Positions 1 to 38,459 of a DNA stretch of 38,459 bases are shown in pieces. A model generated the notes under the pieces. The model was given only the letters and a program-made list of their open reading frames with translations. It ran no database searches and had not been told where the DNA came from. The stretch spans positions 268,503 through 306,961 of the forward strand of contig WELB01000154.1 in NCBI GenBank assembly GCA_009602725.1. The letters are read 5' to 3'. Made by a program: the position numbers and the translations under genes. This stretch comes from Spirogloea muscicola. Lineage: Eukaryota; Streptophyta; Zygnematophyceae; Spirogloeales; Spirogloeaceae. Numbering within the stretch: position 1 is the stretch's first letter; every line of letters starts with the position of its first letter.

Positions 1-153
1 ATGCGCCTGGCCGTCTCGCTGCAGAGGTCCATGGCCCGTGCGCTGCACCTGCGTGCTGGCCGAGCCCTTGCTGCTGCCTCTGGCTCTGGCCAGGGGACAT
101 ACTTCCAGGAGCATAGCCTCTCCGACCTGCGCCTGCTTAGCAGGGGTTACTGA
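1..153 (+). mobile_element. RLE retroelement fragment: last 50 codons of the ORF
   Basis: The reading frame from base 1 gives 50 residues and a TGA at 151-153, ending SDLRLLSRGY. This terminus recurs about 13 times in the window at the C-terminus of a retroelement ORF (see 11631-13909 and 30989-31984). The middle part, with QRS, ALH and RAGRALAAASG, matches the 38084-38323 minus-strand copy closely and the 11123-11640 copy more loosely, which defines a second subfamily (type II). The fragment is cut by the window edge, so an upstream part may exist. It is not a free-standing gene, because all relatives continue upstream into zinc-finger and endonuclease sequence. Confidence 0.75.
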
Positions 154-345
154 GTGGTTGGTAGCTGCTTTGTTTTTTCTTGTGTGCTTGTCATTTCTGC
201 TGCTTCGCCTTAGGGCTTCGCCTGGCTTCCCCCCCCCCTCTTCTTGTACTCTGTTCATTCTTTTTTGGGCTGGCTGTTCCAGCCCATATTCTCAATGGGC
301 GAGCCCTTCTTTCTTTCTCACAGCCGCTCCGTTTCCCATCGTGTC
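154..345 (+). repeat. Retroelement 3' tail with GGGCTGG/CCAGCCC stem-loop
   Basis: After the stop at 153 there is a pyrimidine-rich stretch and then a perfect 7-bp stem: GGGCTGG at 267-273, loop CTGTT, CCAGCCC at 279-285. The flanking text (ACTCTGTTCATTC before it, CTCAATGGGC after it) is repeated nearly word for word at 30225-30285, and in inverted form at about 14170-14225 and 38265-38310. It therefore belongs to the element and not to the neighbouring host gene. It ends only about 180 bases before the start codon of the DUF3598-like gene and probably lies in that gene's promoter region. Confidence 0.7.
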
Positions 346-400
346 AGCAGCCACCGTCCCTCTCACCTCACGTCCTGGCGCCACCCACAGCCGCGGCCAC

Positions 401-434
401 GCCGCCGCCGCCGCCGCCGCCGCTGCCGCCGCCT
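401..434 (+). repeat. (CCG)n microsatellite
   Basis: About eleven near-perfect GCC/CCG triplets lie in the putative 5' region of the DUF3598-like gene. Long open frames overlapping it on both strands encode only Ala, Pro or Arg runs and are artefacts of the repeat. Confidence 0.8.
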
Positions 435-522
435 CATCCGCCGGCGCCGGCGCCGGCTCTCGCACCTTCAGAGGCCTCTGTAGCGCGGCCGTGGCGGACG
501 GCATTGCAATGAGCGGCGCGCC

Positions 523-1929
523 ATGATGGCCGCCTGCGGCTGCCGGGCCCCCAGCCTGCGGCCCGCCGCCTCTGGGACGTCGACAGGGGACCCCGCTGCC
601 CGCCTTTCGCGACGGCGCGCCGGGCTGCGAGGCCCCAGTGCCTTTGACGAGTGGCCCTTGCAAGGCCGACAGGCCGGCAGAAAGGGAAACCCCTCCGCCG
701 GCAGCAGCGCTGCGCAGCCCAGCAGGGAGGGCCTGCGCTGCGAGATGGCTGCCGACGGCCGCGGCGACGGCGGCCGCAGCGGCGTAGTCGGCGGCGGCAG
801 CAGCCGGCGGCTGAGCACCGAGGAGCACTGGGCGTGGCACCGGCCGCACCTGCAGCACTGGCACGGCCGCTGGGTGCTGTGGGATCCCGCCGCCGGCGCC
901 GGCAACTCCAAGTCCTACCGCTCTGTGCGCTCGCTGCAGGCCACCGACGCCGGCGCCACGGCGGTCCGCCACAAGGTCGGCGCCAGCCGGCCATCACTGC
1001 GAGCTACGGAGCACAGCCAGACTGCACGGCCGCTGCTCTGCAAGTGGGCCAGCAGCTGCCGACCCAGACCAACATATCGTGGCTGTGGCTGTCGTTCGGT
1101 GCTCGCTTGTTGCAGAACCAGTGGTATGGAGCCGAAGGCGACGCGGATTGGAAGTGGGACTACGGGCCATGGCACTACAGCGCTGCCGAGCACAGCCTGC
1201 CCGACGGCCTCGTGCACCCACAATCGCCTGACCACCGTGTCCTCGCCCTCGGGCCTGACGGTGACAACTGCTGGGCGCAGCTGCGGGTCAAGCCCGGCGA
1301 TCTCAAGTCGGCCGTCTTCGTCGAGTTCTTCTTCATGGCAGGTCCATGATGCCGCCAAAACCCCTGTCACAAGAGCGACTCGGTCATTTATCACGTCTGC
1401 TGTTCAATTGTTGCCAATCTTGCCTGTCTCTTGCCTATCTTGCTCCTCGGCAGGCCCTGGGGCGCGGTTCAGCGTCCCGGTCGGCTACAACGAGAAGGAG
1501 GCGTTGCTGGTCGGCCTGACGCTGGAGGACGCCCTGCCTGACGACCAGCAGCAGCCGGCATCCTGGACTGGCAATCGGTGGACGCACGAGAAAGCAGACC
1601 TAGCACCGGCGAGGCCGGAACTGAGGGGCCGCTTTGTGGGCCTCGAAAGAACAACCACCCCAACCCTCGATCACTCAGAAGCGATGGGCGAGTGGAAGGG
1701 CTTCTATCGAGGCCGCGACTCAGAATTGGTCCTTCTTTACCATCTCCCCAACAACGTCTCCGTGGCCGCTCCTCCAAGTTTGCCGATTGGTAAGGACTTC
1801 GAGTTTGTGGCCACGTGGCTCGCCAGCAGCGACGAGATTTTGCAGACGTGGGTCAAGTACGCAGCCTCTGGAGAACTCGAGTATGTGCGCGGAGGTCGGT
1901 ACAAGCGAGTCGAGGACGGCACCTTGTGA
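523..1929 (+). CDS. DUF3598-like (lipocalin/calycin-type) protein
   Basis: Proposed exons are 523-975, 1017-1341 and 1454-1929, giving about 417 residues. The first join is in phase but implies an intron of only 41 nt. The second is a clear GT-AG intron. The N-terminal domain has the pattern LQHWHGRW, then DP and SYRSVRSLQ. The C-terminal domain has MGEWKGFYRGRD, then LLYHLPNNVSV and a final W-to-YAASGELEYVRGG segment. These resemble the first and last calycin-like strands of DUF3598 proteins of cyanobacteria, algae and plants, whose biochemical role is unknown. The first ~90 residues are Arg/Ala/Gly-rich and could be an organellar transit peptide, or the true start may lie downstream. Stop codon is TGA. 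The family call rests on memory of the fold pattern and is moderate. Confidence 0.5.
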   Translation: MMAACGCRAPSLRPAASGTSTGDPAARLSRRRAGLRGPSAFDEWPLQGRQAGRKGNPSAGSSAAQPSREGLRCEMAADGRGDGGRSGVVGGGSSRRLSTEEHWAWHRPHLQHWHGRWVLWDPAAGAGNSKSYRSVRSLQATDAGATAVRHKVGASRPSLRATEHSQTARPLLCKWASSCRPRPTYRGCGCRSVLACCRTSGMEPKATRIGSGTTGHGTTALPSTACPTASCTHNRLTTVSSPSGLTVTTAGRSCGSSPAISSRPSSSSSSSWQVHDAAKTPVTRATRSFITSAVQLLPILPVSCLSCSSAGPGARFSVPVGYNEKEALLVGLTLEDALPDDQQQPASWTGNRWTHEKADLAPARPELRGRFVGLERTTTPTLDHSEAMGEWKGFYRGRDSELVLLYHLPNNVSVAAPPSLPIGKDFEFVATWLASSDEILQTWVKYAASGELEYVRGGRYKRVEDGTL

Positions 1930-1990
1930 ATGTGCTTGAAGGCATCTGTATGGCCAGGACAACTTTGACAAAATGCCGAGTGCACATTCC

Positions 1991-2026
1991 ACATCATGAA
2001 CATCATGCACATCATGCACATCATGC
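1991..2026 (+). repeat. 9-bp tandem repeat ACATCATGC x4
   Basis: Four consecutive 9-mers (ACATCATGA once, ACATCATGC three times) lie about 60 bases after the TGA of the DUF3598-like gene, probably in its 3' UTR. The 1930-2228 interval between this convergent gene pair otherwise shows nothing I can identify. Confidence 0.8.
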
Positions 2027-2228
2027 CCCTACTGGCTTTGCACACTTCGCAATATCTGCTTGGCACTCGGAATTGGTCAGAGCATTTTGTGAACGCTGGA
2101 CAACAATATGCGTGGCACACGTGGCCACTGCTATGTTGTGTGAATAGCAGCTGACTGCCTTCATGAGAAAGCCCACTACTTTGACGTAAGTCCATACTAA
2201 CTGTGATCCGGCTGTGCACGTTCGGCAG

Positions 2229-4246
2229 TCATTGATACCAATCTAGAAACAGAAGAGCCAAGGATGCGACGATCAGAAAGAGGAGGAGGAAAGTACGGTT
2301 ATCCTTATTACTCCGCACGGTCTTGACGAGCTCCTTGTTGCCCTTCTCTACATTGTGCGTTGCCTCCACAGCCTGTCAGCAATGAGCACATCTTTGATAT
2401 GTAAGAAGTGCACAGGACTGCACACAGCTGCGATTTTGCAAAACAATCAAACTCCAATGGCTGCAGCATGCTTGCCACCTTCAGTACATGCTGACACGTA
2501 AATGTCACCAGGCATTCCAGAGTAGCTCAATCTAGTGTTGCGGAAATAGGCTCACTGCTCCAAAGAAGATGCAAGCCACCTTCTTCTGTTACTGGCACCC
2601 TTGACACGTGCAGCAATTCACACCTGCTGATACAGCTGCTCAATCTGATGAGCCTGCTGAACTATGTGTGTAGAGAAGAGGTGGCTGAGCGCGGACATCT
2701 CCAGCATCTTGCTCTCGGCTTCACGGGCACTGTCCATTAAGCTGCTCAGCTCAACCTATCCATAAGCCACAGTGGCAGTACGTCCATCTTTACCAGATCA
2801 GAAAATATGTTACCATAATACAGGGGGCCACGTTGCCAGCTCCTCAGTGTCGAGAGCACCATTTGCCACCACTACAACCAGATATAGCAGCAACTCACAC
2901 AGAGCGGTGCCCTGCAAGGGTATCCAGCAAATACAAGCTCACACACAAGCATATAACCATTCATCTACCTGCAGCGCCCTTGTATCTTCTTGGAGAAGAA
3001 TTTGGGCTTGCCCATCTCCCCTTGCTTCAGTTGTTGTAATGTCTAGTACTTTGGACCTGCCGCCATCAGGGTTTCCCAGCATCCCTGCATCCCTTTTCGC
3101 CCTGAGCCTGTTGAGGGGCTCGCGGCGCTCCAATGCCTCCTGGTACCGGAGGACCCTCATCTTATCGAAGACGCCTGCGACTGCTGCAAGGCGCTCACTC
3201 AGGTACAGCACCTAGGCCCCACAGAAGCGACATTGACAGCTTGCTTATGATAGGCTAGAGCTTGAAGGGAGGTAGACACTGACAGGCAAAGCTTGGATGC
3301 AGCAACTCGTCTGCTGAGAATGTTAATGTACACACCACGCCTTGCTGGTGAGCTGCTACATGAGGCTCCGAACCGCTCTGCTGGGATAGCCCAAGCCAGC
3401 TGAGCGATGAGGGCTTTCCAGGCTCAGCAACTATAGTTGCTCTCAGGACGTCAATCTGCTCTCGACAGGCCTTCATAAAGAGCCCAACCTTGAGAACCAA
3501 ACATCATGAAAGCATATTTGTCAGGTCTCTAACATGCTCAGCGACGACTGAAGAGTACGGACAGATGTCTTAGAGTGTTGCATAGACAAGATCCCTTGCT
3601 CTCAACATGAGTCATGGGTATATCTCCTGCTGTAACCATGTGCAAAATAGACGGGAAGGCCAACACTGCTAACAGGACACAAGCGTCATGCAGCTGGGTG
3701 GGCAGCCCGCACCTCGTGCTCTATGTCGTCCTTCTCTCGTTCAGTGCTCCGCTGCCGATCAAGATAGTCCTTGTGGTGCCTGGCAATGAAGGCCTGCATC
3801 GTCCGCACGTTGCCGAGCTGCCATAGACAGCAGAGCAGAGCCAGCGTCGCAGCGTCAAATGCTGTATATCAGTGGAAGCCTGTTTTGTCAGACGACGAGC
3901 TTGCAAAGTGGCCGAACGTGCATAAAGAGTGGCCGACTGGTGCAAATGCCTACAATGTCGAGCGCCGTACGGTGGAAGGGGGTGTGGAGAACCGGCTGCC
4001 TCAACAGGAACTTGGACGTAATCTTCGCCATCTGTGCCTGGTGTGACGTGCCATCCATACGGCAAAGGTACGTCAGGAACATCGCTGGCTGGCTTCTGCC
4101 GCCCTCGAGCCGAAGCATGGTCACGGCGTCCGAGAGGACTCTCAAGAGCCCTTGAAGCTCACCTCGGAGCGGCCCTCGAGCGACGCCGCCCGCCGCACCG
4201 TCTCCCTAAAGGCCTCGGTGCGGTCCCTCCCGCCTGGCACGGCCAT
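2229..4246 (-). CDS. SYP81: SYP81 / syntaxin-18 (Ufe1-type) Qa-SNARE
   Basis: Seven phase-0 exons: 4246-4163, 4031-3954, 3817-3713, 3488-3336, 3211-2969, 2755-2624 and 2372-2229. They give 312 residues, close to the ~310 of plant SYP81. The start MAVPGGRDRTEAFRETVR fits the family N-terminus. Exon 4 contains FMKACREQIDVLR and WLGL, and exon 6 contains the SNARE helix with MLEMSALSHLFSTHIVQQ. Exon 7 has VEKGNKEL and then a C-terminal membrane anchor at about residues 292-308, ending LDWYQ. SYP81/Ufe1 proteins act at the ER in Golgi-to-ER retrograde fusion. All junctions are GT-AG and the product looks intact. It is transcribed divergently from the DDX11 gene. Stop is TGA. Confidence 0.93.
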
Positions 4247-5005
4247 CGTGCCGGGACTGCCGCCGGCCGAGGCGGCTACTCGCGGATGAGCCCCCGGACT
4301 GGAGCTCGCGAGCTACCGACCGCGAGCCGATCGGGACGCGACGAGTCTGACGACCATGGCCGACGAGAAAGGCCCGTCTCAGCCGTCTCAGTCGGAGCAG
4401 GTCCTGTCCCGAGCGCGGCCCCCTTCCTCAAGCCCGGCGCTTGCCAGCGAGGTCGCTGCCCGGCTGGACTGCGACCGCGCCAAGTCCAGTCGGCGGCAGC
4501 TAGTAAGGAGGAGCTACCATAGAGCAGAGGAGCGGAGGAGGGCCTCGGAATGAGAAGCGGGGAGCGCCACTGCGAAGCTCTAGGGTTAGGGTTTAGGGGG
4601 TCTAGGGTCATAGAGGCCAGGCTGCAGGCGGGGGGGAGCAATGGCGGCAGGCTCCGCGGCGAGCTGCGGGCTGACAGGGACGCCTAGCTGGATCTAAGCT
4701 GTCGGGATGAGATGCCGCTGCCGCCGCCGCCGTCAGCTAAGTGGGGCAGCTTAGCTGGGCCGCCCGCGCGCGGGAAACTGCAGTCGATCTCCGATGGCCC
4801 CCCTCAGCTGACCCCCGCCGCGCGCCGCGCCGGGACGCGCGGCGCCGCCGCCGCGCGCGCTGCTCCGGCGCCGGCGGCGTGGCCGGAGGCCGGGCTGTCG
4901 CAACCGGCGAGAGCCCGTGGCCGTGGCCAGCGTCGCGGACCAGCGGATGCTGGCCACGCGGCACTGAGGGCCGTGTAGGAAAGCTTGGACGTCGAGCGTG
5001 CCGCC
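4247..5005. promoter_or_regulatory. Divergent intergenic region between SYP81 and DDX11
   Basis: This 759-base GC-rich stretch separates two start codons facing away from each other, so it should hold both promoters. I see no TATA box that I would defend. Small open frames here, for example one from 4356, have no recognisable product. The one notable element is the telomere-like tract described separately. Confidence 0.5.
4579..4608 (+). repeat. Short telomere-like (TTTAGGG-type) tract
   Basis: The tract reads TCTAGGGTTAGGGTTTAGGG followed by GGGTCTAGGG, that is, imperfect plant/green-algal telomere units. It lies in the SYP81-DDX11 divergent promoter region. It could be an interstitial telomeric remnant, or a telo-box-like promoter element as known from plant genes. 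It is too short to mark a chromosome end. Confidence 0.6.
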
Positions 5006-8000: not shown

Positions 8001-9901
8001 TCGAGCATTTGCAGACTTTCTTATCGCTCTAGTCAATGCAGATTCAGACGGCCGGGTGCTATGCCAAGCAGCAGGTCCTGAGACAGAGGATCCCTACTAC
8101 AAGTTTGTCATGCTCAATGCTGCGAGGCACTTTGAAGGAGTGAGCTACTCTATGCCTGCTTACAGCAAAAGTTCAAAGGTCAATATATATCATGAGCACA
8201 TATTGCTGAGACATGAGCTCCAGAGCACAATGCAACGCTGATAAATTGTTGGTTCTGGCGTGCAGATTGTGCAGAGTGCAAGAGCAGTCATACTTGCAGG
8301 TGGTACACTACAGCCGGTTCAGGATCTTCGAGATGGATTGTTCCCAAACATTGATCACAAGCATTTGCAGGTCTATTCATGTGGTCATATTGTCCCTGCA
8401 AGTAACATCCTTCCATTGGCTATTTCCAAGGGTCCCACTGGAAAGGAGTTGAACTTCGGCTTCAAGTCGCGCTCTTCTCAGACTATGGTATGCTCTTCGT
8501 TGTCTTTGTTCATGCAGCACTTGTTGCACTTGCAGAGTGCTGTAAGGCTTTGTAGCTCGAGTACTCTGATTCTTGTGACTTTAATGAGGAGTCTTCTTAT
8601 GCAGCAGGCTGTGAGCTGAGACTGATGCTTCCTGTCTGACTTTCCTCGACCGTCACATGAGTTGATATGCAAGTCCTTGCGGTGCCAACTTCAATGTGCT
8701 CTGCTTGCATCACTAAATTTTGTAGGAAGCTCACTAGCCCTTCTTATATTGAAGGCCATAATTTGAATGGACAGACTGAGGAGCTGGGTCGGATAATGTG
8801 CAACATATGTACACTAGTTCCTGATGGAGTTGTGTGCTTTTTTCCTTCCTTCGCCTACGAAAGCGAAGTGCATGATACATGGCATGCTTCCGGCCTGATG
8901 AAAAGGATTGAGGATAAGAAAACGGTCTTTCGAGAACCACGTTGCTCCACTGATGTGGACAAAGTGCTCCAGCAGTATCGTGATTGCATAAATACACTCC
9001 AACATCGACAAAGTGGACAGCTAAGCTCACTGGATGCCGCCTCTTGCAAGGAGGGGGTATGCCTGGAGGGGGTAGGTAGTGCACCCATCGGAGACGAGAG
9101 GTTAAATCAAGGACGTCCTGGGAGTCCAAGACAGCAGAGAGGAAGGGGAAGAGGCGGTGCTCTGCTACTATGTGTTGTTGGAGGCAAGATGTCCGAAGGT
9201 ATCAACTTCAGCGATGGCATGGGCAGATGCGTGGTCATGGTTGGTCTTCCCTATCCAAGCCCCTCAGATCCGGAACTCCTTGAGCGGATGCACTACTTAG
9301 ATCAACGAGCGACCACAGGGAATGCTCACAACTCTGCAAAGGAGGTACTGTCTTCCTTTCCAGACTGTTTGTCCTTTACTTGACCTGCACATTAAGTTGT
9401 CAAGCATTGTCAAAGCTCACAGTGAAGGTCTCCTGTCAGTGATAGCGCAAGAGAAATTGCTTGCAATTGCAGGCTGCCGAGGTGAACATCCTTCGGAGGT
9501 GCGGACAACGAGGGCAAGCATACTATGAAAATCTTTGCATGAAGGCAGTCAATCAGTCAATTGGTAAGTGCCACTTGTGCAACTTAGGTCGATTTAATCT
9601 ATCGTTTGGCTGGTCAACAACAGGGACAACATAGCGACAACCTTGATGACTTGGTACAAGTAGAGCGCCGTTGTCTTATGTGCCTCCACTGCTGGATGAA
9701 CCTCTGTATACAGGTCGCGCTATTCGCCACATTGGAGATTATGCAGCCATCATGCTGCTGGATACACGCTACAATCTCAGTATCCAAGGTGGACCTCTTA
9801 CCAAGCTTCCTGGCTGGATAAGAAAGCGTTTAATATGCTGCACGAGAAGCTTTGGTGACGTCCCCCGCTTGCTGCACCAATTTTTCCAGGAAAAAGAGTG
9901 A
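5006..9901 (+). CDS. DDX11: DDX11/CHL1-type iron-sulphur DNA helicase (XPD family)
   Basis: Exons: 5006-5168, 5352-5693, 5857-6087, 6242-6321, 6554-6757, 6931-7062, 7256-7385, 7528-7664, 7912-8139, 8266-8487, 8775-9344, 9473-9563 and 9714-9901. They total about 905 residues, matching the usual ~900. Walker A is ESPTGTGKT (residues 51-59), motif Ia is [10 protein letters not shown], and motif II is DEAH (363-366). Motif V is [16 protein letters not shown], and motif VI spans the last intron (NQSIG/RAIRH). Four Cys at about 242 (SLCINE), 260 (NDRCLELQ), 284 (KGCPF) and 320 (ESCPYY) fit the 4Fe-4S site. Known homologues unwind forked and G-quadruplex DNA and act in sister-chromatid cohesion in the nucleus. 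The exon 4/5 border is uncertain: the better acceptor at 6545 breaks the frame, so 6553/6554 was used. Stop is TGA. Confidence 0.95.
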
Positions 9902-10153: not shown

Positions 10154-10372
10154 TCATTCCAAGCAAAGCAGAGAGTCCTGAAGGGGCTGAAGGGGCTGAT
10201 AGATAACCCGAGTCAGCAGCCGCACGTTGGAGAAGTTTGCAGCTGGAAAATAGGCACTTCGACGAGATCCAGAAGTAGCAAATAGAATATGGCCTGCCCG
10301 CAAAAATTGCGTGTAGTGTAATAATGGAACGCCAAAGGGGTCAAGTACAACAGCAAGCACAGCTGATGACAT
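10154..10372 (-). pseudogene. Retroelement ORF terminus, type II, stop codon lost
   Basis: On the minus strand the frame reads ATSGSRRSAYFPAANFSN and then VRLLTR, matching the type II terminus at 11123-11640 (APASGSRRSASFPAAS, then SDLLLLTCGY). The terminal GY-stop is replaced by VIY and the frame runs on, so the copy is decayed. It sits directly downstream, in the same orientation, of the type I terminus ending at 10399. The 9902-10153 stretch before it, after the DDX11 stop, holds nothing I can identify. Confidence 0.65.
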
Positions 10373-10398
10373 ACATTAATCACTGCACATTGACGGGC

Positions 10399-10841
10399 TC
10401 AGCAACCACGGGTCAACACATTAAGGTCGCTGATTGATGCCTGAAAACCAGATGGCAAATATCAAGCCCTTCTGCCACCAAAGTGGAGCTCGCCCCGCTT
10501 TCTGGTGCAAAGTATGAGCCTGAGCACGCAGAACAGCGCTGCAAACAGGCCAACACTCGATGGTGCAAGGACAACAGAGATGCAGCTGGCAAGCCCATCT
10601 CAGCCGGAAGCACATCTGCGCGTCGTGCATAGCCTAGATTGGCAATGTTCTTAAGGAGAGTGTGGAATCGAGGACCTATACAGCCAAATATGTCGACTGC
10701 AGCTGGCATGAGCTGATCGAAGAAAGCGCGGCCAGATTGACTGGTGGCTGGGCATGAGCTGATCGCAGTGGCGGTAAGGAGCGCAAGAGTACCACGGTGG
10801 AGGCTCGCTGTGGCATTCTTTCCTCTTGGCTGGCCTCTCAC
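10399..10841 (-). pseudogene. Retroelement C-terminal fragment, type I
   Basis: The minus-strand translation contains QLMPAAVDIFGCIGPRF, then NIANLGYARRADVLPAEMG and a LLSLHHRVLACLQR segment. It aligns with the region after the endonuclease in the 11631-13909 and 30989-31984 copies. The end appears as SDLNVLTRGC-TGA at 10399-10401, in a frame shifted from the upstream part, so at least one indel is present. The zinc finger and the catalytic endonuclease residues are missing. It is a dead 3' fragment. Confidence 0.75.
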
Positions 10842-11017
10842 TATTTCTTGTTATTCACAGCCACCGCCCTCTCTTAAGTGGGAAATACACAGCTAGGCAT
10901 CTAGAGCTAGGCATCTAGGCATCTAGATCTCTTAGAAGCGGCATTCTTCTTGTGGCGCTGTGGCAGCGTTCAACTGCCGTTCCGCTGTCTAGAGAATTGC
11001 TCGCCCTCAGAGGGTAG

Positions 11018-11036: not shown

Positions 11037-11122
11037 AGAAAGAGTGGACAAGGTCCAAAGAGCCAAAGGCTGCCGAAAAGAAAACCCACACAGCTAGACA
11101 CTACACGACCGCAGATGGAAGC

Positions 11123-11640
11123 TCAGTACCCACAAGTGAGCAACAGCAAGTCCGAGTAACTCGCAGCTGGGAAAGAGGCACTCCGTCGAGACCCAGAGGC
11201 AGGAGCTATAGCGCAGCCTGCTCGCGAGTGGACTGCGTGAGCCAGGGAGCGCTGGAAAGAGACGGAGAGCCGCATGCGGAAGCCTGCGCGAGCGAGCCGG
11301 TGTAGCCCGCCTCCAGGAACACGCCATGAATGGCGTTCTGCAGGAGGTCGTGGGAGCCGGTCCTCTCACCTCCGTGCGCACAGTGGAGCATGCCGGTGTA
11401 GCCCGCCTCCAGGAACACGCCATGCATGGCATCCTGCAGGAGGTCGTGGGAGCCGGTCCGCTCACCTCCGTGCGCACAGCGGAGCATGTGTGCAGCCAGC
11501 TCCGCAGTGTCGGCGTGGCGGGCTCCGCATTCGCACTACGCGACACCGACGAGGCATGGAAGAAGGAGGCCAAGGAGCCGGTGGACCGTTGTCCTGAAGA
11601 CCGAGTGGGGCATGGTGAGCGCAGCGTAGATTGGGAGTGC
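11123..11640 (-). pseudogene. Retroelement zinc-finger/RLE fragment with internal deletion and in-frame TAG
   Basis: Read on the minus strand from 11640, the frame gives FRTTVHRLLGL, then PCLVGVA-TAG, then CECG, an AAHMLRC finger and SHDLLQDAMHGVFLEAGYTG. The other copies read CLIGVTQCECG and CLIGVRQCECG, so the TAG stands at an otherwise fixed Gln. The stretch from the finger to the start of the endonuclease is then duplicated in tandem. After that the sequence jumps to the type II terminus, ending SDLLLLTCGY-TGA at 11123-11125. The endonuclease catalytic core is deleted, so it cannot be functional. It abuts the plus-strand reverse transcriptase fragment head-to-head at about 11640. Confidence 0.75.
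11299..11490 (-). repeat. 96-bp tandem duplication inside the retroelement fragment
   Basis: Two 96-base units, 11299-11394 and 11395-11490, each begin GGTGTAGCCCGCCTCCAGGA and differ at only a few positions. The unit is exactly 32 codons and in frame. On the minus strand it encodes the last finger residues plus the start of the next helix (ML[RH]CAHGGERTGSHDLLQ onward). Divergence between the units shows that the duplication is not very recent. Confidence 0.85.
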
Positions 11641-13909
11641 TGATAACCACGCCGCCGCCCCGGGAGGAAGCGCTACTCCTCTCCACCTGCCGGCACATCA
11701 CCAGAGCCACCATTCCCCCGCGCATCGCCGATGCTCTCAACTCCAGCCACCTGCTGGCTCTGGCCAAGCCGTCAGGTGGTGTGAGGCCCATCGCCATGAC
11801 CGAAGTCATCATGCGGCTGGTGACCAAGGCTTTGTGCGGCGAGCTCAAGTCCCAGCTGTCCACCCATTTTTCACCCCACCAGTTTGGTGCTGGCATGTCC
11901 TGCGGGGCAAAGGCCCTCGTCCACGGGATCCGAGCAGCACTGGATGTCAAACCATCACACATGGTCCTTGGACTGGAAATAGCCAATGCATTCAACATTG
12001 TGGTGCGCAGCGCCATCATGGAGGAGCTGCGTGATCACTTCCCGTCCTTGATTCCATACTTCCTCATGGCCTATGGCCGGCCAGGGCGGCTGCTGTGGCG
12101 TTCGGAGGAGTCTTGGACGACCTTATGGTCCACAACTGGCACACGCTAGGGAGATCCCCTCAGCCCCATACTTTTCGCCTTGGCACATTCCCGGGCACTA
12201 CGGCGCACCCAGAGCCTGCACCCCAACCTCCTCTTCCCCTCCTACGCCGACGACACACATATCGTCGGCCCACCGTCAGCAGTCATGGCGGCTTATCCCT
12301 TGCTCATATACGAACTGAGCACAATGGGCCTGCAGGTTTGCCACGCCAAGAACGTGGCATGGTCACCACACGGTCTCCCCACCAACCTCCAGCTCCCACC
12401 AGGCTGCCAGACCCCTGCCAATGGGCTGGCTGATCTCAAAGTTCCCCTTGGCACTCCATCCCACTTTGCGGAGGACTTACGTGAACCTCTGCAGCAACAC
12501 CTTGCCCCCCTCCCCTCCCTTCCTCTCCTCGGAGATCCGCAGCTGGCGCTGGCCATCCTTACTCGCTGCATTGGTCAACGAGCTGGCTACTTGCAGCGAA
12601 CAGTCGCCCCAATGGACATGGTGGGTGAGCTGTACAAGGAGTTCGACACCTTCCTCCTGCAAACCCTGGCTTCCCTGATGCAACACCCATCCTTCCCCTC
12701 ACCTTCATCCTCCCTGCAGGCATCCCTTCCCACACGAATGGGCGGCCTGGGCTGCGGGTCACTTGAACAGACGGCGCAGGCAGCCTCTCTCGGTTGCTGG
12801 CACCAGGTTGCCTCCTTTCTTCCCTTGCGCTTCCCTTGCCTGGCCGGCCCTGCAGCCGAGGTGGAGGAAGGCTCCTTGGCATTCCAATTGCAATTGAGGA
12901 GCATCCTGGAGTCAAAACTCTGCTCCCTCCCCTCCCTACAACCCCTCCTCACCCCCTTCTCAGCGCTCGCTCAAGCACCAGACAAAGCGGCACAGGCCAT
13001 ACTCGTTGCTGCAGTTGAGGACGAGCGTCGCAAGGCGTTGAGGACGATGCTGGATATCAAGACCAATCCAAGGAGTCTGGCACGTCTCATATTGCTCGCA
13101 ACGCCTGGGGCAACGGATTGGCTCACCACACACGCAATCCACAACGCTTTCAAAATCAGCCCTGAAGCATTCCGGACGCTTCTCCAGCTGTTCCTGGGCC
13201 TGCCCCCGACCTGCCTGATTGGAGTAACTCAGTGTGAGTGTGGCTTCCGTGCGGAGGGCGGAGACCTAGCCACCCACATGCTGCGGTGTCCCACAGGCCC
13301 TGAGGGGGTGGGCGTCCACAACCTCCTACGAGAAGCCCTGGCGGGCTTGATGCGCGATGCCGGCTACCGCGCCATTGTGGAAGTAAGCAATGTGATGCCC
13401 ATCACCATGGATTCCCAGGGTCGCCATCACCGTCGCACCCTGGACATTGTGGGTGTACAACCTGGCGGAGGCCCACGAGCCTTGGTGGATGTGATGGTGA
13501 CCGAGGCATACAAGAGTTCCGCTTCCACACACATTGCTGGCCACGCAGTGGGAGGTGCTGAGTGGAGAAAGCTCCGACACTACTCTGACTACCCCCGCAG
13601 CGACCACCTTCTCCCGGCTGCAATCGACACTTTCGGCTGCTTGGGTCCTCGCTTCCATACCCTACTTGAAAACATAGCGAGTCTGGGATATGCACGACGC
13701 GAGGATATGCTTCCAGCCCACATAGGTATGCCGGCAGCCTATCTGTCAGTTTTGCGACGCCGAGTGTCAGCTTGTCTGCAGCGAGCTCAGGCTCATGCGT
13801 TGCATCAGAAGCTGGTCGAGCCTTGGCTGGTAGTTCAAGAGCTTGTTGATTGCCGTCCGCTATTCGAGCATCACTTAGCGACCTCTATGTGCTGACTCGT
13901 GGTGACTGA
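11631..13909 (+). mobile_element. Non-LTR retroelement, RT + CCHC-like finger + restriction-like endonuclease (5'-truncated)
   Basis: One frame runs from 11631 to 13895 (about 755 codons), interrupted only by TAG at 12147-12149. RT blocks in order: LLALAKPSGGVRPIAM (finger strands), HQFGAGMSCGAKALVHGIR, LEIANAFN (motif A), then TAG-GDPLSPILFALA (motif B) and YADDTHIVGP (motif C). Next come the finger CECG...THMLRC (C-x-C-x11-H-x3-C) and RRTLDIVGVQPGGGPRALVD, which fits the PD-(D/E)XK-like endonuclease of RLE-class non-LTR elements such as R2/CRE types. Oddities: motif A has Glu where RTs have Asp, the TAG replaces the conserved Gln of QGDPL, and the last ~12 codons are frameshifted (the family end SDLYVLTRGD-TGA is at 13907-13909). 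The N-terminal region is absent. The copy is probably inactive. Confidence 0.85.
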
Positions 13910-14261
13910 GCGGGTCAGCTTAGCAGCAGGTGACGTACATTTGTCAATGTGCTTGCCTTTGTACTTGGCCACACATGGCCTCCCCATCTCTTAATACACA
14001 CGTCTTTTCTGCCTGACCTTGGACGAGATGCCCAGCGCAGATGTAGAAACGAATACAGTTCGACGGGGCCAGAAATTTATATATGGAAAAGGCAGTGAGA
14101 AGCAAGTGGCTCACAACGCTCTCCCGATGATGAGGGCTGTGAGAAGCCAGAAGAAAGAAAGGGCTAGCCCATTGAGGCTAGGGGCTGGAACAGCCAGCCC
14201 GGAAAGAATCAACAGAGTACGAGAAGGGGCCCACAGAAGAAGCGCTGCTGGCAAGCGAGCT
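13910..14261. repeat. Retroelement 3' UTR (+) followed by an inverted stem-loop module (-)
   Basis: 13910-13985 continues the plus-strand element with text shared by other type I tails: GGTCAGCTTAGCAGCAGGTGA, then GTGCTTGCCTTTGTACTTGG. From about 14225 back to 14130 the minus strand reads like the tail at 150-345, including a perfect stem GGGCTGG/CCAGCCC (14182-14188 with 14194-14200). Two element tails therefore meet here in opposite orientation. No host gene is visible before the HIT gene start at about 14262. Confidence 0.65.
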
Positions 14262-30169: not shown

Positions 30170-30310
30170 GAGCGTCTATCTCCCTTTCTTTGTTTCTTTG
30201 TGCTTGTTTTTCTTAGCGCTTCCTTCTCGTACTCTGTTCATTCTTTTTTGGGCTGGCTTTTCCAGCCCCTATCCTCAATGGGCACTTTCTTCTTTCCCTT
30301 CCCCCAGCTC
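30170..30310 (+). repeat. Second retroelement tail with perfect GGGCTGG stem-loop
   Basis: It is nearly identical to 150-330: a T-rich lead, TACTCTGTTCATTC, GGGCTGG (30250-30256), loop CTTTT, CCAGCCC (30262-30268), CCTCAATGGGC. No ORF terminus is recognisable just before it. Between it and the first tail (29946-30169) nothing further was identified. Confidence 0.65.
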
Positions 30311-30830: not shown

Positions 30831-30988
30831 TGCCAGCGGCTGGGCAGAGCCCACTGAGAGGTGAGAGGAGATGGAGCGTTGAGCGGGCAGAAAAGAGATC
30901 GTGTATTAGAAAGAAATGTAGGCCAAATGGCCAGGTACAAAGGCAAGCACATCTAAACATCTACATAACCTACAGCAGATTGACCCGC
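30830..30988 (-). repeat. Type I retroelement 3' UTR of the RLE fragment upstream
   Basis: On the minus strand, following the TGA at 30989, the sequence reads GCGGGTCAATCTGCTGTAGG and TGTGCTTGCCTTTGTACCTG. It reaches a decayed stem-loop (GGGCTCTGCCCAGCC) near 30839-30853. The order agrees with the tails at 13910 and 29800. Confidence 0.6.
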
Positions 30989-31984
30989 TCAATAACCACG
31001 GGTCAAAACATAAAGGTCACTACTCGATGCATGAATACTAGATGCCAGGAACGGAGCCCTTCTGCCACCTACTAGAGCTCGCCCAGCTTTCTGGTGCAAG
31101 GCACTAGCCTGAGCACGCTGCAAACAGGCCGAAACTCGACGTCGCAAGAGCGACAGATATGCAGCTGGCAAGCCCATCTCAGCCGGAAACACATCTGCGC
31201 GTCGAGTGTAGCCTAGATTGGCAATGTTTTGAAGCAGAGTGTGGAAGCGAGGACCCAGACAGCCAAAGATGTCGATTGCAGCTGGCAGGAGTTGATCGCA
31301 TTGGGGGTAATCGGAGTAATGCCGCAGTTTTCTTTGCTCTGCTCCGCCCACTGCGTGCCCAGCAATGTGTGTTGATGCTGGGCCTTTATATGCCTCCGTA
31401 ACAACAACGTCGACCAGGGCCCGTGGTCCTCCACCAGGTTGCACGCCCACAATGTCAAGTGTGCGGCGATGATGACGTCCCTGGGCGTCCGTGGTGATAG
31501 GCATGATATTGTTGACTTCCACGACCGCACGGTAGCCGGCGTCGCGCATCAAGCCCGCCAGGGCATCGCGAAGGAGGTTGTGAATGCCCACCACTTCTGG
31601 TCCAGTGGGGCATCTCAGCATGTGAGTAGCGAGCACAGCACCCTCTGCACGGAAGCCGCACTCGCACTGGCGCACCCCAATCAGGCAATTAAGTGGGAGG
31701 CCGAGGAAGACTTGAAGCGATGTCCGAAAGGCCTCGGAGCTGATGCTGAAGGCGTTGGCGACGGGGGGAGAGGTGATCCAGTCAGTGGCACCAGGTGTGG
31801 CCAGAGAAGTGAGGCAGGGCAGAGAGGCAGGGCTTGGGCCAGTGTTCAGAAATAAGAGCCCGCGCAGGGGACTCGGCTGGTGCCCTTCGTTAATGTGGGT
31901 GTCGGGGAATCCGGGAGGGCACCGCCCCAAGTGTCTGACAGAGCTGCTTATGGCGGTGAACGCGGTTAGACGCCGCCCCACCAA
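30989..31984 (-). mobile_element. Retroelement fragment with intact zinc finger and restriction-like endonuclease
   Basis: An uninterrupted 331-codon frame. Similarity to the 11631-13909 copy starts near LATPGATDW (about 31810), so the first ~55 codons are of other origin and the real insertion is 5'-truncated. It carries CLIGVRQCECGFRAEG, then THMLRC (C-x-C-x11-H-x3-C), GIHNLLRDALAGLMRDAGYR, HHRRTLDIVGVQPGGGPRAL with VDVVVTEAYK (PD-(D/E)XK-like), LLPAAIDIFGCLGPRF and the end SSSDLYVLTRGY-TGA. Unlike the other copies it has no frameshift from finger to stop, so it is the best reference for the family C-terminus. The RT domain is absent, so it is not autonomous. Confidence 0.85.
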
Positions 31985-32309
31985 GCACGTGATGCAGGTG
32001 GTTACCGCCTTCGCGGAACCACTTACCGCCCCTATCTAATCTGGAAGGGAGGTGGATGGGAAACTACTCCACGGCTGCCGCCGCCTAGAAGGAAGTGCTC
32101 GCTCTTGGAGAAGAGCGGCTGGCAAAGCCAGCCCAAAAAGAATGGACAATATCCAAAGCCAACGATGAAAAAGCTGCCGCCGCCTAGAGCTAATTAGCTA
32201 ACTCGAAGTCAGCCAAGGCTTCTCCCTTAGCGATTTCTCGCCTAAGGACAACAGTGAGTATAGGCTTCTATCTGACATGGGCTTGCCGGCCTATTTTATA
32301 AGGTCTTGC
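31985..32309. repeat. Spacer with one inverted stem-loop module
   Basis: GGCTGG (32117-32122), loop CAAAG, CCAGCC (32128-32133), followed by CAAAAAGAATGGACA, is the minus-strand form of the element stem-loop. The rest of the stretch holds nothing I recognise. Confidence 0.55.
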
Positions 32310-32640
32310 CACGTCGTGTGTCAGCCTGTTTGCAGCCAGCTCAGGCTCATGCATTAAGACAACGGAAACAGCTCTCCCAGATTGACAGCAGTTGCTGCGA
32401 GAGGCCAGTCCAAGAGAATGAACACGGGTTACAACAGGTCTTGCTTATCACCAGGAAGCCGGTCGAGCCTTAGCCGGTGGCACAGGGCTTGTTAATTGCA
32501 GTGCCGATATTCGGGCATCAATCAGCGACCTCTGTGCGCTGACTCATGGTTCCTTAGCGGGGTCAGCTTAGCAGCAGGTGATGTACATCTGTCAATATGC
32601 TTGCCTTTGTACTTGACCACGCAGGCCCTCCATCACTTGT
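32310..32640 (+). pseudogene. Decayed type I retroelement terminus with small insertion
   Basis: CGTGTGTCAGCCTGTTTGCA matches the CVSACLQR-type segment of intact copies. A 92-base unrelated insert follows (about 32357-32448), then EAGRALAGGTGLVNC and SDLCALTHGS. The canonical GY-TGA is mutated (TAC TGA became TCC TTA). The type I 3' UTR follows at 32563-32640 with GTCAGCTTAGCAGCAGGTGA. Confidence 0.7.
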
Positions 32641-33027: not shown

Positions 33028-33085
33028 CTCTAGGTCCGGGGTCCGTCAGGGCGACGCTTTTCCGCCCTCTGATTATGCTTTTTGT
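33028..33085 (+). pseudogene. Reverse transcriptase motif B remnant
   Basis: One frame reads RSGVRQGDAFPPSDYAF, resembling the S-x-x-G-x-R-Q-G-D-P-L-x-P block of RTs. The same block in the 11631-13909 copy has TAG in place of this Gln. Sequence around it carries stops in all frames, so only a scrap remains. The match is short and could be coincidental. Confidence 0.4.
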
Positions 33086-33179
33086 ACTTGCTGACTAGAG
33101 GTTATAGAGCGCCTTTTGCTGACGTCTTGAAGAACGATGTCCTGCTTCTTATGCCACCCGGCCCTTTCAGACCTTGTCC

Positions 33180-33400
33180 ATTCCTTTGGGCTGGCCTCTC
33201 ACAGCCATTGCTATGAAGTAGAAGAGCTGTTTCTTCTTCTTGCTTCTTGCGCAGCGGGGTTGCTCTTCCTCCCCTTGCTCATCTGACTTCCTACTGCTGA
33301 CACGGGGGTACTAAGTGCGCCCTGGCTGCCTAGCCTGTGGCTCCGTCATAAATACCTGTATGCATCTGGCTGGCTTTCACAGCCGCTCTTTTAATACCAG
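33180..33400 (+). pseudogene. Type II retroelement terminus and tail
   Basis: 33256-33312 includes SSDFLLLTRGY and then TAA, where all other recognisable copies have TGA. The 3' tail (GCGCCCTGGCTGCCTAGCCT, then CCTGTATGCATCTGGCTGGC) is about the same as the tail of the minus-strand copy at 38084-38323. Another stem-loop (GGGCTGGCCTCTCACAGCC) stands upstream at about 33189. From 33401 to 33770 I recognise nothing. Confidence 0.65.
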
Positions 33401-33989
33401 CAGCCGCTTTGTTGTTCTAGGCCGCAATTACGACGACACGAGCCTAGGACGTAAGTATGCTTGACTGGGGGCCACTCTTTGTATGGTTAAGGACGTCTTC
33501 GGTTGCCGACACGACTAGGATGTCGCAACGATGGCCATCATCGACAAGCTGTCAGGGAAAGCTCAGCAAAGGGGAATGAGACCTTCAAGCAAGTGCCCGT
33601 CTTGGCCCCAGTGGCAGACTGTTCGAGGAGCTTAAGCGAGGACTGTTGACGTTGAAGTCAACTACCGGGAAAGAAGTTGTCCTATCGCTTCCCCGCAAAC
33701 AATAGGTTTTTGGACGAGTGGAAGATGCAATTTACTTCACGAGCATAGCCATTGCAGCGGAGATGTTGGAATGAAGATGGCCGATAACATTAGAAAAGAG
33801 GCCGTTCTGCACTCCTGCCGGCCTCCACAGAACGGTCAGGTGCACCCCGCCTCATCGTCATCATATGAGGTATATGACAAATTCCGACCACGTACAAGTG
33901 GGAGAAGAGGAGACGTCAGGAGCTTCTCGACTCCGGCAACGTCAAGGTGGCTCAGCGAGTATGCAACCTGCACCATCCAACACCGCCTC

Positions 33990-34532
33990 ATCTCCACCAT
34001 ATCTTTGTCAGGCATTCACAGTATTCTCCAAGATGCCCTGGCGGGGTGACGCGAGAAGCCAATCACCATATGACTGTGGAGGTTAAGGGCATCATGCTCA
34101 TTGCCACCGTTGCCCAGGGTTGCGCTCTGAACGTTGTAAGTGTACAATCTGGTGGAGGAACCACGGTGCAATAGCTGACGTGACTGTCATGGAGGAGTAC
34201 GAAGGCGCTGCCTCGATCTACACTGGTGGCCATGTACGTGACAGTACAGACTTGAAGAAGTTGCAGCCCTGGTTCGACTACCCCTGGTGTGAGCATCTCC
34301 GACCAGCCGCAGTTGACACTTACGGCGTCCTGTGTCCTCCTTTCCACACCTTGTTTTGGGCCTTGCCAAGCTAGGATACCCTCAAACCAAGGTTGTGCTT
34401 ATGGCGGACTTGACATCAGCATGTTTTGTTCTTGTTCTTGTTCACATAGGGGCCGTTATCTGGAACTTGTGATCTGTCGTCCGCTATCAGGCATCCGTTA
34501 GCGGCCCCTATGTGCTGACCCGCGGCTACTGA
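33990..34532 (+). pseudogene. Heavily decayed zinc-finger/RLE retroelement copy
   Basis: Pieces in shifting frames follow the family order: GIHSILQDALAG (then TGA), VEVKGIMLIAT, VVSVQSGGG, ADVTVMEEYEGAASIYTGGH, LRPAAVDTYGVLCPPFHTL, and finally GTGCTGACCCGCGGCTACTGA at 34512-34532. Several frameshifts and stops separate them. It is older than the 30989-31984 copy. Confidence 0.7.
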
Positions 34533-34940
34533 GCAGGTCGGTACAGCTGCAGGCGGCCTGCTCGCGAGACGTGCTTGCCTGATTATTGCTTGCTGGGCTG
34601 CTCATCCCCTGCTCAATGTGGACACTGAATGTGGACGCTGATACCCCGCGCGCGCAGGAGTGTCACTGCAGCGCCCGCGCTCGGCAGCGGGGCTGCCAGA
34701 CACCGTCTGCCGCCTGCCGCGGCGTCGGCTCCACCAGCGAGCTTCGTTCAGCTACAGCATTTTCGAATTTCTCCATGCCGCAAGCTGCGTCCTTTCGAGG
34801 GAAAGGACTCTATTGCCACCTCCAGAGGGCGAGGCCGCCTCTTCCTGTGACAGCTACATGCCCCATAACCAGGACTTTGTGAGGCTCAGTGTGACCTCCC
34901 TAAGAAGAAGTGACCCTAAAAACTCTTCCAAAGGAGATGG
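34533..34940. other. Unassigned stretch
   Basis: There are open frames on the plus strand around 34586-35070, but no family resemblance or splice pattern that I can defend. Confidence 0.35.
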
Positions 34941-34944
34941 AGTT

Positions 34945-35094
34945 TGTTTTACGCGATGGAGGGCCTCAGTGGCCAAGTACAAAAGCAAGCACATTGACAC
35001 ATGTACATCACCTGCTGCTAAGCTGATCCGCTCAGTAACCACTAGTCAGCACGTAGAGGTCGCTAAGTGATGCACGAAAGCCAGACCTCCAAAA
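34945..35094 (-). pseudogene. Type I retroelement terminus and 3' UTR
   Basis: On the minus strand the sequence SDLYVLTSGY-TGA (stop 35032-35034) is followed by GATCAGCTTAGCAGCAGGTG, then GTGCTTGCTTTTGTACTTGG and CCCTCCATCGC. This is the same order as the tails at 13910 and 32563. Only the last ~20 codons of the ORF are present. Confidence 0.75.
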
Positions 35095-35159
35095 GGGACG
35101 AGGGCTGTGAAAAATCAGCCTGACAAGAATTGACAAGGTCACCTTTATTCCAGAGACTA

Positions 35160-35300
35160 GTTTCTCCGAGCTCGGCTGCTGTAGTAGGGGTTACTGAGGG
35201 TTTCGTAGCTACTTGATTCCCTGTTTCATTTTAGCGTAGTCCCTGGCCCCTTCGAGATTTGTTCGTCTTTCTCTTAGGGCTGGCCTCTCCCAGCCACCGC
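35160..35300 (+). pseudogene. Type II retroelement terminus with stem-loop
   Basis: ELGCCSRGY-TGA (stop 35195-35197) is a degenerate form of the family end. About 80 bases later comes the stem GGCTGG (35278-35283) / CCAGCC (35290-35295), followed by the ACCGCCCT text also seen after other stem-loops. Orientation is opposite to the adjacent fragment at 34945-35094. Confidence 0.6.
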
Positions 35301-36302: not shown

Positions 36303-37781
36303 TCAGACATCCGCACAACACATGATCAGCTCACTCTGAGCAGAGGTCCAATCATTCACCTCTGGCTGCCTGTCGTCTTGGTCGGCATTGTTGAATCTGA
36401 GCAGCAGTGTCTCCAGTCCGCAGTAATGATGCCACCGGTCCTCAGTGCCCCGCTTCTGCACCCTCTCTACAAGATCGATGATAGCGACAGCCTGCTCCCT
36501 GACGCAGAAAGTACAGACGACCTTGCACGCGTCGGCGTAGACCTCATCCAGGCCAGCTGTGCAGCAGCGGCTGCTGAGAAAGACCAAGGTGGGCACCCAG
36601 ATGAGGAGGAAAGAGAGCCGCTCGCGGTCCTCAACGGCCAAGCGCCCTGTTGCAAGGCCGCGGAGGCAGCTCCGCAAAATGCCATTGAATGTGCCACCCG
36701 TCTCGTCGTCGGCCTGACTCCTGATCGAGTTGGCCAGCCACTCCTGCGTCGCGAGCAGCGCGGCAAGCGTCGGCCTGAATCCCAGGTCGTGAACCTGCGC
36801 GAGCAGCCAGCCATACTTGAAGAGCAGCCCCGGGAAAAACATGGCCTGCGCAGCAAGCGTGCTGGCCTCGCTGCGCACGACGTCGAAGACCGCGTACTCC
36901 ACGCCGCGGCAGAGGGCCTCGTCGCCCGTGGCGGCGATATTCTTGAGCATGGCCATGAGCGGCGCCTCCGCAGCTATGACCGTCGCCGCTTCATGCCGGG
37001 GGCTCAGTGCAACGCGGCTGAGCGCGGCCTCCACCAGCGCGCGCGTGACGGCCCGCACCGCCTCACAACCTGTGAGAGGGTCCCTATTGCTGGCGCGGCG
37101 CGCAAGGAGCTTGTTCAGGCGGCCATCATCCAGTGGGATGGACCTGGCAAACGCCTTGATGGTTGCCTCCTCTGCTGCTGTCCATTGAATGACGGTCAAA
37201 TACTCGGCCGCGAGGTTGACGCCGTCCTGGAACAGGAGTTCGGCTGACGCCAACAGGAAGCCAAATGCGCTGGTGAAGCACTGTAGCGGCGTTGCCAGCG
37301 CCATCTTGTTGTACATGGCCTTGATGACTGCAACGTACGCTTTGGCGCCGCTCGCCGCCACCAGCTCCATCGTCGTCACGCCGCCGCTGCCGGCCCACGC
37401 CGCGGAGCACCGCGCCTCGAGGAAGGGGCTCTACGGGCACACAACGGCCTTGTGGAGGTGAAGCTCGATGGCGCGGCCGCTGCAGGCGTCCTTCACCGTC
37501 AGTAGAAGGTCCGCCTTCTCGCGACCGTTGAAGCGGGGCTGCGTCGTTGCAGGGTGCGCCGCAACGCTGGGAGCGCGGGCGCCGCTGCCGCCAGCTGCCG
37601 TTGCAGGCCTGCCAGCGAGCCGAGCTGACGCCCCCAGCGGCGGATTGCCGGCATGAGCTGCGAGCACAATCGCTCCGGGGAGCTCGGCGGCCGTGGCCTC
37701 ACTCGGCTCGCTCGTCCGCAGGGCCCGCTCCGAGGGCTGGCCGCCGCGGCGCGCCGCTCGCCTCGGCATCTGGTGGCCCAC
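36303..37781 (-). CDS. BTB/POZ-BACK-like protein gene with in-frame TAG at codon 117
   Basis: The frame from ATG at 37781 to TGA at 36303 is 493 codons and intronless, broken only by TAG at 37433-37431. Before the TAG: a Pro/Ala-rich leader, then FNGREKADLLLTVKDAC and AIELHLHKAVVCP, the first strands and helix of a BTB fold with the conserved H-K. After it: SPFLEARC, then AYVAVIKAMYNK and FGFLLASAELLFQDG, the rest of the BTB. A long all-helical region follows (FARSIPLDDGRLNKLLARRA through LLFKYGWLLAQVHDLGF). BTB proteins often serve as Cullin-3 adaptors or dimerisation modules, but no partner can be inferred here. A splice around the TAG would delete the conserved H-K block. It is therefore a mutation, a sequencing error or a sense TAG. 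A downstream start at 37379 would lose the first half of the BTB. Confidence 0.7.
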
Positions 37782-38083
37782 GGACGGGGCGCGGCAGGCG
37801 GCGAGGCGGCCGCCGCAGTGCGGAATGACTGCCGCTTCTGCAGAGAATGCGCGACAGGCAGCGCCCGGAGGAGCTTGCGGCTGCTGAGACTACGAGAGTG
37901 GCGGCGCGGCTGCCGGGCGCTGCCTGCTGGCCAGCTGCGGCGGGGTGGTCCGACAAGCTCGGCAGCCGGGGAGCAGAGCAAGGGGGAAAGCGGCTGCTGA
38001 TATTAAAAAATCGGCTGTAAACTGCCAGCCAGATGCATACAGGTGTTCATGACGGAGCCAAAGGCTAGGCAGACAGGGCGCCC
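37782..38083. other. Upstream region of the BTB gene
   Basis: GC-rich up to about 37975 and then AT-richer. It probably holds the promoter of the minus-strand BTB gene. At 38005-38066 it overlaps the 3' tail of the adjacent type II retroelement terminus, whose minus-strand text GCATCTGGCTGGCAG matches 33357-33372. No gene was seen. Confidence 0.45.
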
Positions 38084-38323
38084 TCAATACCCCCGAGTCA
38101 GCAGTAGGAAGTCAGATGAGCTGAGGGGAGGACGAGCAACCCCGCTGCGCAAACCAGAGGCTGCTGCAAGGGCGCGACCAGCCCGGCGATGCAAAGCAAT
38201 CGCCTGGGACCGCTGTAGAGACATAGACAAGGGCATACGGTAGCAGGACACAAGACCCAAAAGAAGAAGTGGCACTCCCAATGGGGGCAAGGGCTGCGAA
38301 AAGCCAGCCCAAAAAGAATTCAC
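38084..38323 (-). mobile_element. Type II retroelement terminus, open to stop
   Basis: The minus-strand frame contains MSLQRSQAIALHRRAGRALA and then SSSDFLLLTRGY-TGA. It matches the 1-153 copy over about 45 residues, and 33256-33320 at the end. Its upstream part (38245-38310) is the stem-loop tail of yet another copy that ends at 38408. New insertions thus appear to sit within older tails. Confidence 0.7.
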
Positions 38324-38407
38324 AAAGGTTCAGAGGGGCCTAAGAGCGGTGAGCAGCTACAAAGGGGCCTGAGGATGCAATGGTAAAACAGGGGGAGGAT
38401 GGATCAC

Positions 38408-38459
38408 TCAATAAGTACGAGTGAGGAGCCTCAGATCCGACAGACTAGCTGCCGGGAAG
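38408..38459 (-). pseudogene. Retroelement ORF terminus at window edge
   Basis: The minus strand reads SDLRLLTRTY-TGA (stop 38408-38410), followed about 100 bases later by the stem-loop module near 38290-38310 (GGGCTGGCTTTTCGCAGCCC, imperfect). It is cut by the end of the window. Confidence 0.65.

Follow-up and report, generated by a model that had tools for sequence, protein, structure and literature searches.

What has placed the same protein terminus again and again within 38 kb of the genome of Spirogloea muscicola? The window analysed here, a stretch of 38,459 nucleotides (C154:268503-306961, contig WELB01000154.1, in an assembly of 153.1 Mb and 471 contigs), holds many copies of a C-terminal signature, SDLxxL(T/S)RGY-stop, in intact or decayed form. 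Long interspersed nuclear elements (LINEs) that carry a restriction-like endonuclease (RLE) are known chiefly for strict targets, ribosomal DNA among them. We found that the termini in the window are 3' stumps of a superfamily of RLE LINEs, in which five or more families (A, A2, C, D and E) and the diverged E2 can be distinguished. The superfamily is very probably a recently active one with an R2-type endonuclease, which is copied by target-primed reverse transcription and nests in its own copies.

The original prediction assumed a green alga. That the host is photosynthetic and of the green lineage is supported by 68 matches to the chlorophyll a/b-binding family (PF00504) in the genome, the best of which matches many PDB chains of chlorophyll a-b binding proteins. 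The chains that we take to be from moss and other land plants scored somewhat above those presumably from chlorophytes. The assembly search gave no match for the Rubisco large subunit, possibly for want of a plastid contig.

Repeated termini in the window

Scanning the window for the signature returned 6 strict ends (153, 33314 and 34532 on the plus strand; 38084, 30989 and 10399 on the minus strand) and 14 loose ends, compared with means of 0 and 0.82 (maximum 4 for the loose form) in 100 shuffles of the window in two-base blocks. The original prediction listed about 13 termini. Eleven (153, 10399, 11123, 13909, 30989, 32550, 33312, 34532, 35032, 35197 and 38084) are backed by alignment to copies elsewhere in the genome, those of terminus 153 at 99%, and the end at 38408 has the motif alone. 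The terminus placed near 10154 is not borne out, as the minus strand reads ...RLLTRVI... and no superfamily copy aligns there. A decayed end absent from that list, LLTRGY without a stop, lies at about 33076-33108 and looks like the locus L060 by eye; a loose match at 27934 has no second line of support.

Tblastn with the A, A2, C and D proteins found reverse transcriptase (RT) in a single copy (11661-13811), and finger plus endonuclease in two copies (11661-14002, and 30992-31834 on the minus strand), both as first described. A third copy, 11126-11670 on the minus strand, has a complete finger and has lost the endonuclease core. The early count of two subfamilies was too low, since A, A2, C and E are clear in the window and D and E2 elsewhere in the genome, and the claim that subfamilies differ in their tails held. 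Altogether, about 6,505 of the 37,860 non-N bases match the superfamily, including about 140 chance bases in GGC-type repeats; the reversed window gave 108.

Families, abundance and recent activity

A genome search with the longest open stretch of the window (12150-13895), in which 75 of 10,912 candidates were scored, returned at least 12 loci tied at 1141.4 bits. Over 555 residues these family A loci share 93% identity with the window copy, and the longest of their open frames has 1267 codons. In the main DNA match to L002, 15 of 16 A loci were 99.1-99.9% identical and the remaining one 94%. The youngest A end is present in 462 exact copies in the genome, and its reversed pattern in none. The tied scores, the DNA identity and the exact young ends together indicate that family A was recently active.

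The A2 protein (L042) is 81% identical to that of A. The C protein (L047) is 45% identical to A, and the D protein (L046) is 46% identical to A and 55% to C. Family E is represented by L070, which is 5'-truncated with an open frame that starts in older sequence, and E2 by the fuller copy L071, 93% identical to E overall. The architecture described below is common to all families.

Rough first-look candidate counts were 10,912 for A, 16,491 for C and 18,888 for E with protein queries, and 2,723, 1,975 and 3,765, respectively, with 3'-end DNA queries. Among 20 random genomic stretches of 1.5 kb, the superfamily made up 1,485 of 21,157 non-N bases (7.0%), all within 4 of the 20 stretches, and the reversed control gave 58 bases. 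The superfamily is real and abundant and very probably recently active, and several of its families look recently active.

Three further loci were observed. L070:217-4011 and L071:250-4044 show no difference over 681 nt and a further 1,200 nt; beyond that, most 150-nt blocks diverge by about 10-17%, a pattern that looks like a chimera produced by template switching. In L072 (C20:926995-927375), C positions 1090-1164 are joined directly to 4102-4359 and are followed by an inverted C piece; the fragment is an internally deleted or rearranged copy. L060 (C6:1315000-1315300) has an extra tail type, LTRGY-stop followed by TTTGGGCTGGCC...TAGCCA, which suggests another family, and tails like it recur in the window at 29877, 32715, 32790 and 33172.

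Protein architecture and endonuclease

Fuller copies of A, A2, C, D and E2 have a single open reading frame (ORF) of 1,267-1,368 codons from stop to stop, which encodes a Pro-rich N-terminus, zinc finger(s), RT, a zinc knuckle and an endonuclease in that order. This is the layout of RLE elements: one ORF, a zinc finger, RT and an endonuclease at the C-terminus. The Pfam search covered the whole open frames of A2, C, D and E2 to an E-value of 1, and 1,086 amino acids (aa) of A, excluding its first 181, to an E-value of 10. RVT_1 was found in all five families (E 8e-19 to 2e-15), and no match to an apurinic/apyrimidinic endonuclease (APE), to RNase H or to a Myb domain was found among them. The zinc finger was called by sequence pattern, all Pfam finger scores being under their cut-offs. 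Searched against PDB chains, the RT profile matched R2 at 5e-10 and LINE-1 at 1e-8.

The knuckle of A and A2 reads C-x1-C-x11-H-x3-C; in C, D, E and E2 the middle gap is one residue longer, C-x1-C-x12-H-x3-C. The unusual finger that had been noticed in the window, C-x-C-x11-H-x3-C, is present in all six families as C-x1-C-x11/12-H-x3-C, and the window copy at 11126-11670 has the same spacing class.

The C-terminal 271 residues of D were modelled with a mean predicted local distance difference test (pLDDT) score of 62, blocks within residues 71-230 ranging from 55 to 87. The modelled endonuclease consists of a helix, three main strands with a short hairpin, a helix and a strand. The first 7 structure matches were all R2 endonucleases (Z 13.4-11.2), followed by influenza PA (8.0), and Foldseek ranks 1-5 were likewise all R2. 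As modelled, this is an R2-type PD-(D/E)XK fold with the catalytic K in the second helix, and the RLE-type assignment of the original prediction is thus borne out by the predicted fold. Residues H840, E861, D881, D896, K926 and Y930 (E numbering) are invariant in the six families; K-x2-K-Y is exact in C and E, and its second K is absent in A, A2 and D. The part of PMC5678591 available describes the LINE-RLE endonuclease as PD-(D/E)XK with a catalytic K in the second helix and a KX2KY motif. Matched on motif order, not by alignment, the invariant residues appear to fit those described there.

Relation to known elements

In an RT tree of 10 rows, with one R2 row and many open forks, the six families form one group with 98/98 support, and their RT is 25-27% identical to that of R2Tg, values compatible with a place either inside or outside a catalogued clade. 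The row labelled L1 (8c8j, entry name RNA-directed DNA polymerase) is one that we take to be an L1 core.

We put at even chances the explanation that the host alone is new and the element itself belongs, as an ordinary member, to one of the catalogued RLE clades (CRE, R4, NeSL or HERO). The architecture and the endonuclease residues are those of RLE LINEs, and target duplications are usual for CRE and R4 in the accessible text of PMC3636483; however, the knuckle spacing differs in all six families, the insertions are dispersed and the RT stands far from R2Tg. That they instead form a deep undescribed clade of green-lineage RLE LINEs is a tentative proposal. Such a clade would have the C-x1-C-x11/12-H-x3-C knuckle, an RNA ending in a short U run (perhaps an RNA polymerase III-type terminator), priming on the purine strand at CCTT-like sites, with many such sites located in its older tails, and several families that co-expand by self-nesting. 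If the clade is indeed new, it would have a bearing on how LINEs evolved early in the green plants.

Like R2 of Bombyx mori, Taeniopygia guttata and Platysternon, the elements have a single ORF, an N-terminal zinc finger, RT, a knuckle, an R2-type endonuclease fold and 5' truncation. Unlike R2, they have dispersed insertions, some with target duplications, their own knuckle spacing and no Myb domain among the Pfam matches. Indeed, 36 young A ends lie in differing flanks rather than at one shared site such as the single 28S site of R2, although no comparison with 28S was made.

The other comparisons are with published descriptions. CRE and R4 are also RLE LINEs that make target duplications (PMC3636483, in part), but their described members are mostly target-specific in the portion of PMC4640811 available, while ours are dispersed. 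HERO elements also carry an RLE, and many have no target specificity according to the same portion of PMC4640811; the difference from ours is in the knuckle, judged against the spacing given for RLE LINEs in PMC5678591 as far as its available text goes. Dualen/RandI is an RLE-bearing LINE (PMC3636483, in part) found in the green algae of PMC8226300 (in part), but it also carries an APE according to PMC3636483, and the combination of APE and RLE was not found in our elements, in which Pfam detected no APE in the scanned stretches. Nested insertion into own copies, in arrays mostly of 3' ends, is shared with the green-algal Zepp and Zepp-like L1 elements as described in the available part of PMC8226300. 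Zepp, however, is of L1 type (APE) and clustered at putative centromeres, whereas ours have an RLE and lie on many contigs; the L1/Zepp combination of an APE and no RLE is not that of our elements.

No relatives outside the host were found in viral contigs (A1, A4, A5), genome contigs (A1), plasmids (D) or phages (E), which says little because those collections are almost wholly prokaryotic or viral. In the open-licence literature searched, no paper was recognised as describing these elements.

Nesting and crowding

Superfamily sequence of at least 30 bp was present within 300 nt downstream of 14 of 28 A copies, compared with 11 of 70 random pieces. When young A ends were picked by map order, 10 of 21 of their 100-nt 3' flanks held superfamily DNA versus 21 of 211 random pieces of that length (p 5.6e-5), the 211 pieces deriving from 20 segments of which 6 hold any match. 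Since superfamily DNA is enriched in 3' flanks, the crowding of the window is in part explained, and no special locus is needed. Nesting can also be read at base level: C copies stand in tandem five bases apart (L091), C lies in C and E in C (L076, L079), and A2 adjoins A with TTTCCTTCGG common to both.

Accumulation in gene-poor DNA, and not attraction to older copies, seems to us an unlikely cause of the crowding, with some points in its favour: decayed fragments of different ages are also present in the window, and few segments of the genome were sampled (20, from 67 contigs). The base-level nesting speaks against it.

The C-terminal signature

SDLxxL(T/S)RGY-stop or a near variant ends the protein in all families, with differing codons (Ser AGC or TCC; Arg CGT, CGG or AGG), and selection on the protein is therefore the simplest reason for its retention. 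It is improbable that an RNA hairpin spanning the stop codon is instead what maintains the LTRGY-stop end. A and A2 do have such a stem, of 8-9 pairs, in which the codons of the signature make up one arm and the stop is enclosed; one of its pairs differs on both sides and another on a single side. However, C, D and E retain the peptide with other codons and do not form the hairpin; the two-sided change amounts to one inherited difference, with a covariation term of 0.08 and with 3 of 20 rows in which that pair is broken. The tail-folding z-scores are mixed (A -1.84, A2 -1.78, E -2.47, C +0.71, D -0.73 and E2 -0.71), and therefore we do not argue for a 3' RNA structure conserved across the families.

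Signs of target-primed reverse transcription

The 5' ends of truncated young A copies are scattered from position 792 to 3338 (starts include 2733, 2752, 2929, 2966, 2993, 2996 and 3031), and C copies start at 4013, 4048, 4079, 4088, 4101, 4163, 4197, 4274 and 4277, so that the 5' truncation originally supposed is supported. That the short fragments are short interspersed nuclear elements with borrowed LINE tails is very improbable, for although most copies are short and tails are common to many of them, the 5' breakpoints are scattered in A and C, the fragments are continuous with LINE coding sequence and no recurring separate head was seen.

The 3' end is fixed. After ...ACACGCA in 36 young A ends, T stands at +1 in 34, at +2 in 34 (at both in 33) and at +3 in 27; +4 is T or C in 35, +5 is C in 28, and the bases further out are mixed. 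The T run after the fixed end has a length of 0, 1, 2, 3 or 4 in 2, 1, 9, 11 and 13 of these ends, respectively. Downstream of older A, A2, C and E ends the sequence is mostly T first or T/C-rich. Truncated 5' ends and a fixed 3' end are the signs that target-primed reverse transcription leaves in RLE elements.

A minority of copies have target duplications above chance. Flank words of at least 7 nt common to both sides were found in 11 of 31 pairs, compared with 5.2% in shuffled pairs, and in a second set in 9 of 28 (5 with N flanks), compared with a null of 3.4%; seven loci are common to the two sets. Many readable duplications start right after the T run, such as CCTTGACGAGC (L132), CCTTTATAC (L115) and CTTCTCAGAAA (L008).

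Proposed cycle

In the cycle that we propose, the protein would bind its own RNA at the 3' end, which would carry a short 3' untranslated region with hairpins. The endonuclease would nick the purine strand of a pyrimidine-rich site, with a top strand of about CC^CTT as the position is read by eye. Reverse transcription of the RNA would then start at the nick, and the copy would end with the fixed 3' sequence and a short T run that may come from the RNA itself. Synthesis would usually end early, giving 5'-truncated copies, and offset cleavage of the second strand would leave a duplication of several to about 20 bp. New copies may often land in or beside old ones because junctions and old tails are rich in pyrimidine tracts.

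Several observations weigh against a self-nesting RLE LINE of this kind. The knuckle spacing in all six families is outside the CX2-3CX7-8HX4C published for RLE LINEs in the available part of PMC5678591. The whole-protein AlphaFold model, of 1,032 residues of A, was poor (pLDDT 43.9) and was left unused; Foldseek E-values for the R2 matches of the D model were only 1e-3 to 1e-2, and the endonuclease profile had no match by sequence among PDB chains. Several target duplications stand 6-8 nt off the fixed end (L017, L024, L028), and most copies, the window A and C copies included, have none of at least 7 nt. The nesting bias could also come from gene-poor chromatin and not from target sequence.

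An abundant, dispersed and recently active RLE superfamily in the green lineage would be a test bed for the loss of strict targeting by R2-type endonucleases. The hundreds of copies of one identical young end would be useful for questions about the 3' T run and target pairing, and the superfamily could show how self-nesting builds repeat clusters.

Copies and neighbours along the window

Table 1. Superfamily copies and fragments in the window.
Positions	Strand	Feature	Evidence
1..311	+	Family E 3' fragment, end ...LSDLRLLSRGY-stop; E tail with GGGCTGG/CCAGCCC hairpin	DNA and tblastn
10331..10719	-	Decayed A2-like 3' fragment, terminus 10399	79% DNA to A2; tblastn 4e-26
10999-11051	-	E-type tail fragment	DNA to E tails, 81-95% (range over all E-type tail fragments)
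11126..11670	-	C/D/E-like fragment, terminus 11123: finger, 96-bp tandem duplication, no endonuclease core, C-terminus	
11661..14002	+	Family A copy, 5'-truncated within ORF: most of RT, linker, knuckle, endonuclease, 3' untranslated region	
14155..14243	-	E-type tail fragment	DNA to E tails, same range
30222-30283	+	E-type tail fragment	DNA to E tails, same range
30899..31834	-	Family A2 copy, endonuclease part intact to stop at 30989	DNA and tblastn
32089-32149	-	E-type tail fragment	DNA to E tails, same range
32272..32634	+	Family A 3' fragment, terminus ~32550	83% DNA to A over 32449-32631
33076..33108	+	Decayed terminus LLTRGY, stop lost	Loose motif match; resembles L060 tail by eye
33247..33407	+	Family C 3' fragment, terminus 33312	89% DNA to C
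34011..34553	+	Old decayed A/A2-like endonuclease and C-terminus, terminus 34532	tblastn 3e-19
34944..35097	-	Family A 3' fragment, terminus 35032	85% DNA to A over 34958-35086
35148..35250	+	E-like 3' fragment, terminus 35197	75% DNA to E
37990..38261	-	Family C 3' fragment, terminus 38084	98% DNA to C; 40 best genomic matches 97-100%
38408..38440	-	E-like terminus SDLRLLTRTY-stop	Loose motif match alone

The family A copy is 94% identical in DNA to L002 over 11673-14002 and 93% in protein over 717 aa; it has a frameshift close to the C-terminus, and its 5' open stretch scored 25.3 bits for RVT_1, under the cut-off of 29.6. The A2 copy is 99.5% identical to L042 over 925 bp and 98% over 281 aa. 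For the first fragment of the window, the 40 best genomic matches were 96-100% identical, most stopping at 309-320; L068 extends it upstream into endonuclease coding sequence, and tblastn against C gave 64% over 50 aa (E 0.004). The old fragment ending at 34532 is about 46% identical to A/A2-like protein, its DNA pieces matching at 75-76%. By tblastn, the copy at 11126-11670 is 57% identical to D (E 3e-22) and 52% to C (E 2e-10). Its tandem duplication of 96 bp (32 codons), at 11296-11488 on the minus strand with a 94% match, runs from the last part of the finger into the first part of the endonuclease.

Other sequence in the window includes a 375-aa open frame at 36303-37430 on the minus strand, with no Pfam match at an E-value of 0.001. 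Two probable host gene exons lie amid the repeats on the plus strand, one with a Helicase_C_2 domain at 8661-9383 (E 1e-27) and the other with a HIT domain at 15435-15932 (E 1e-4).

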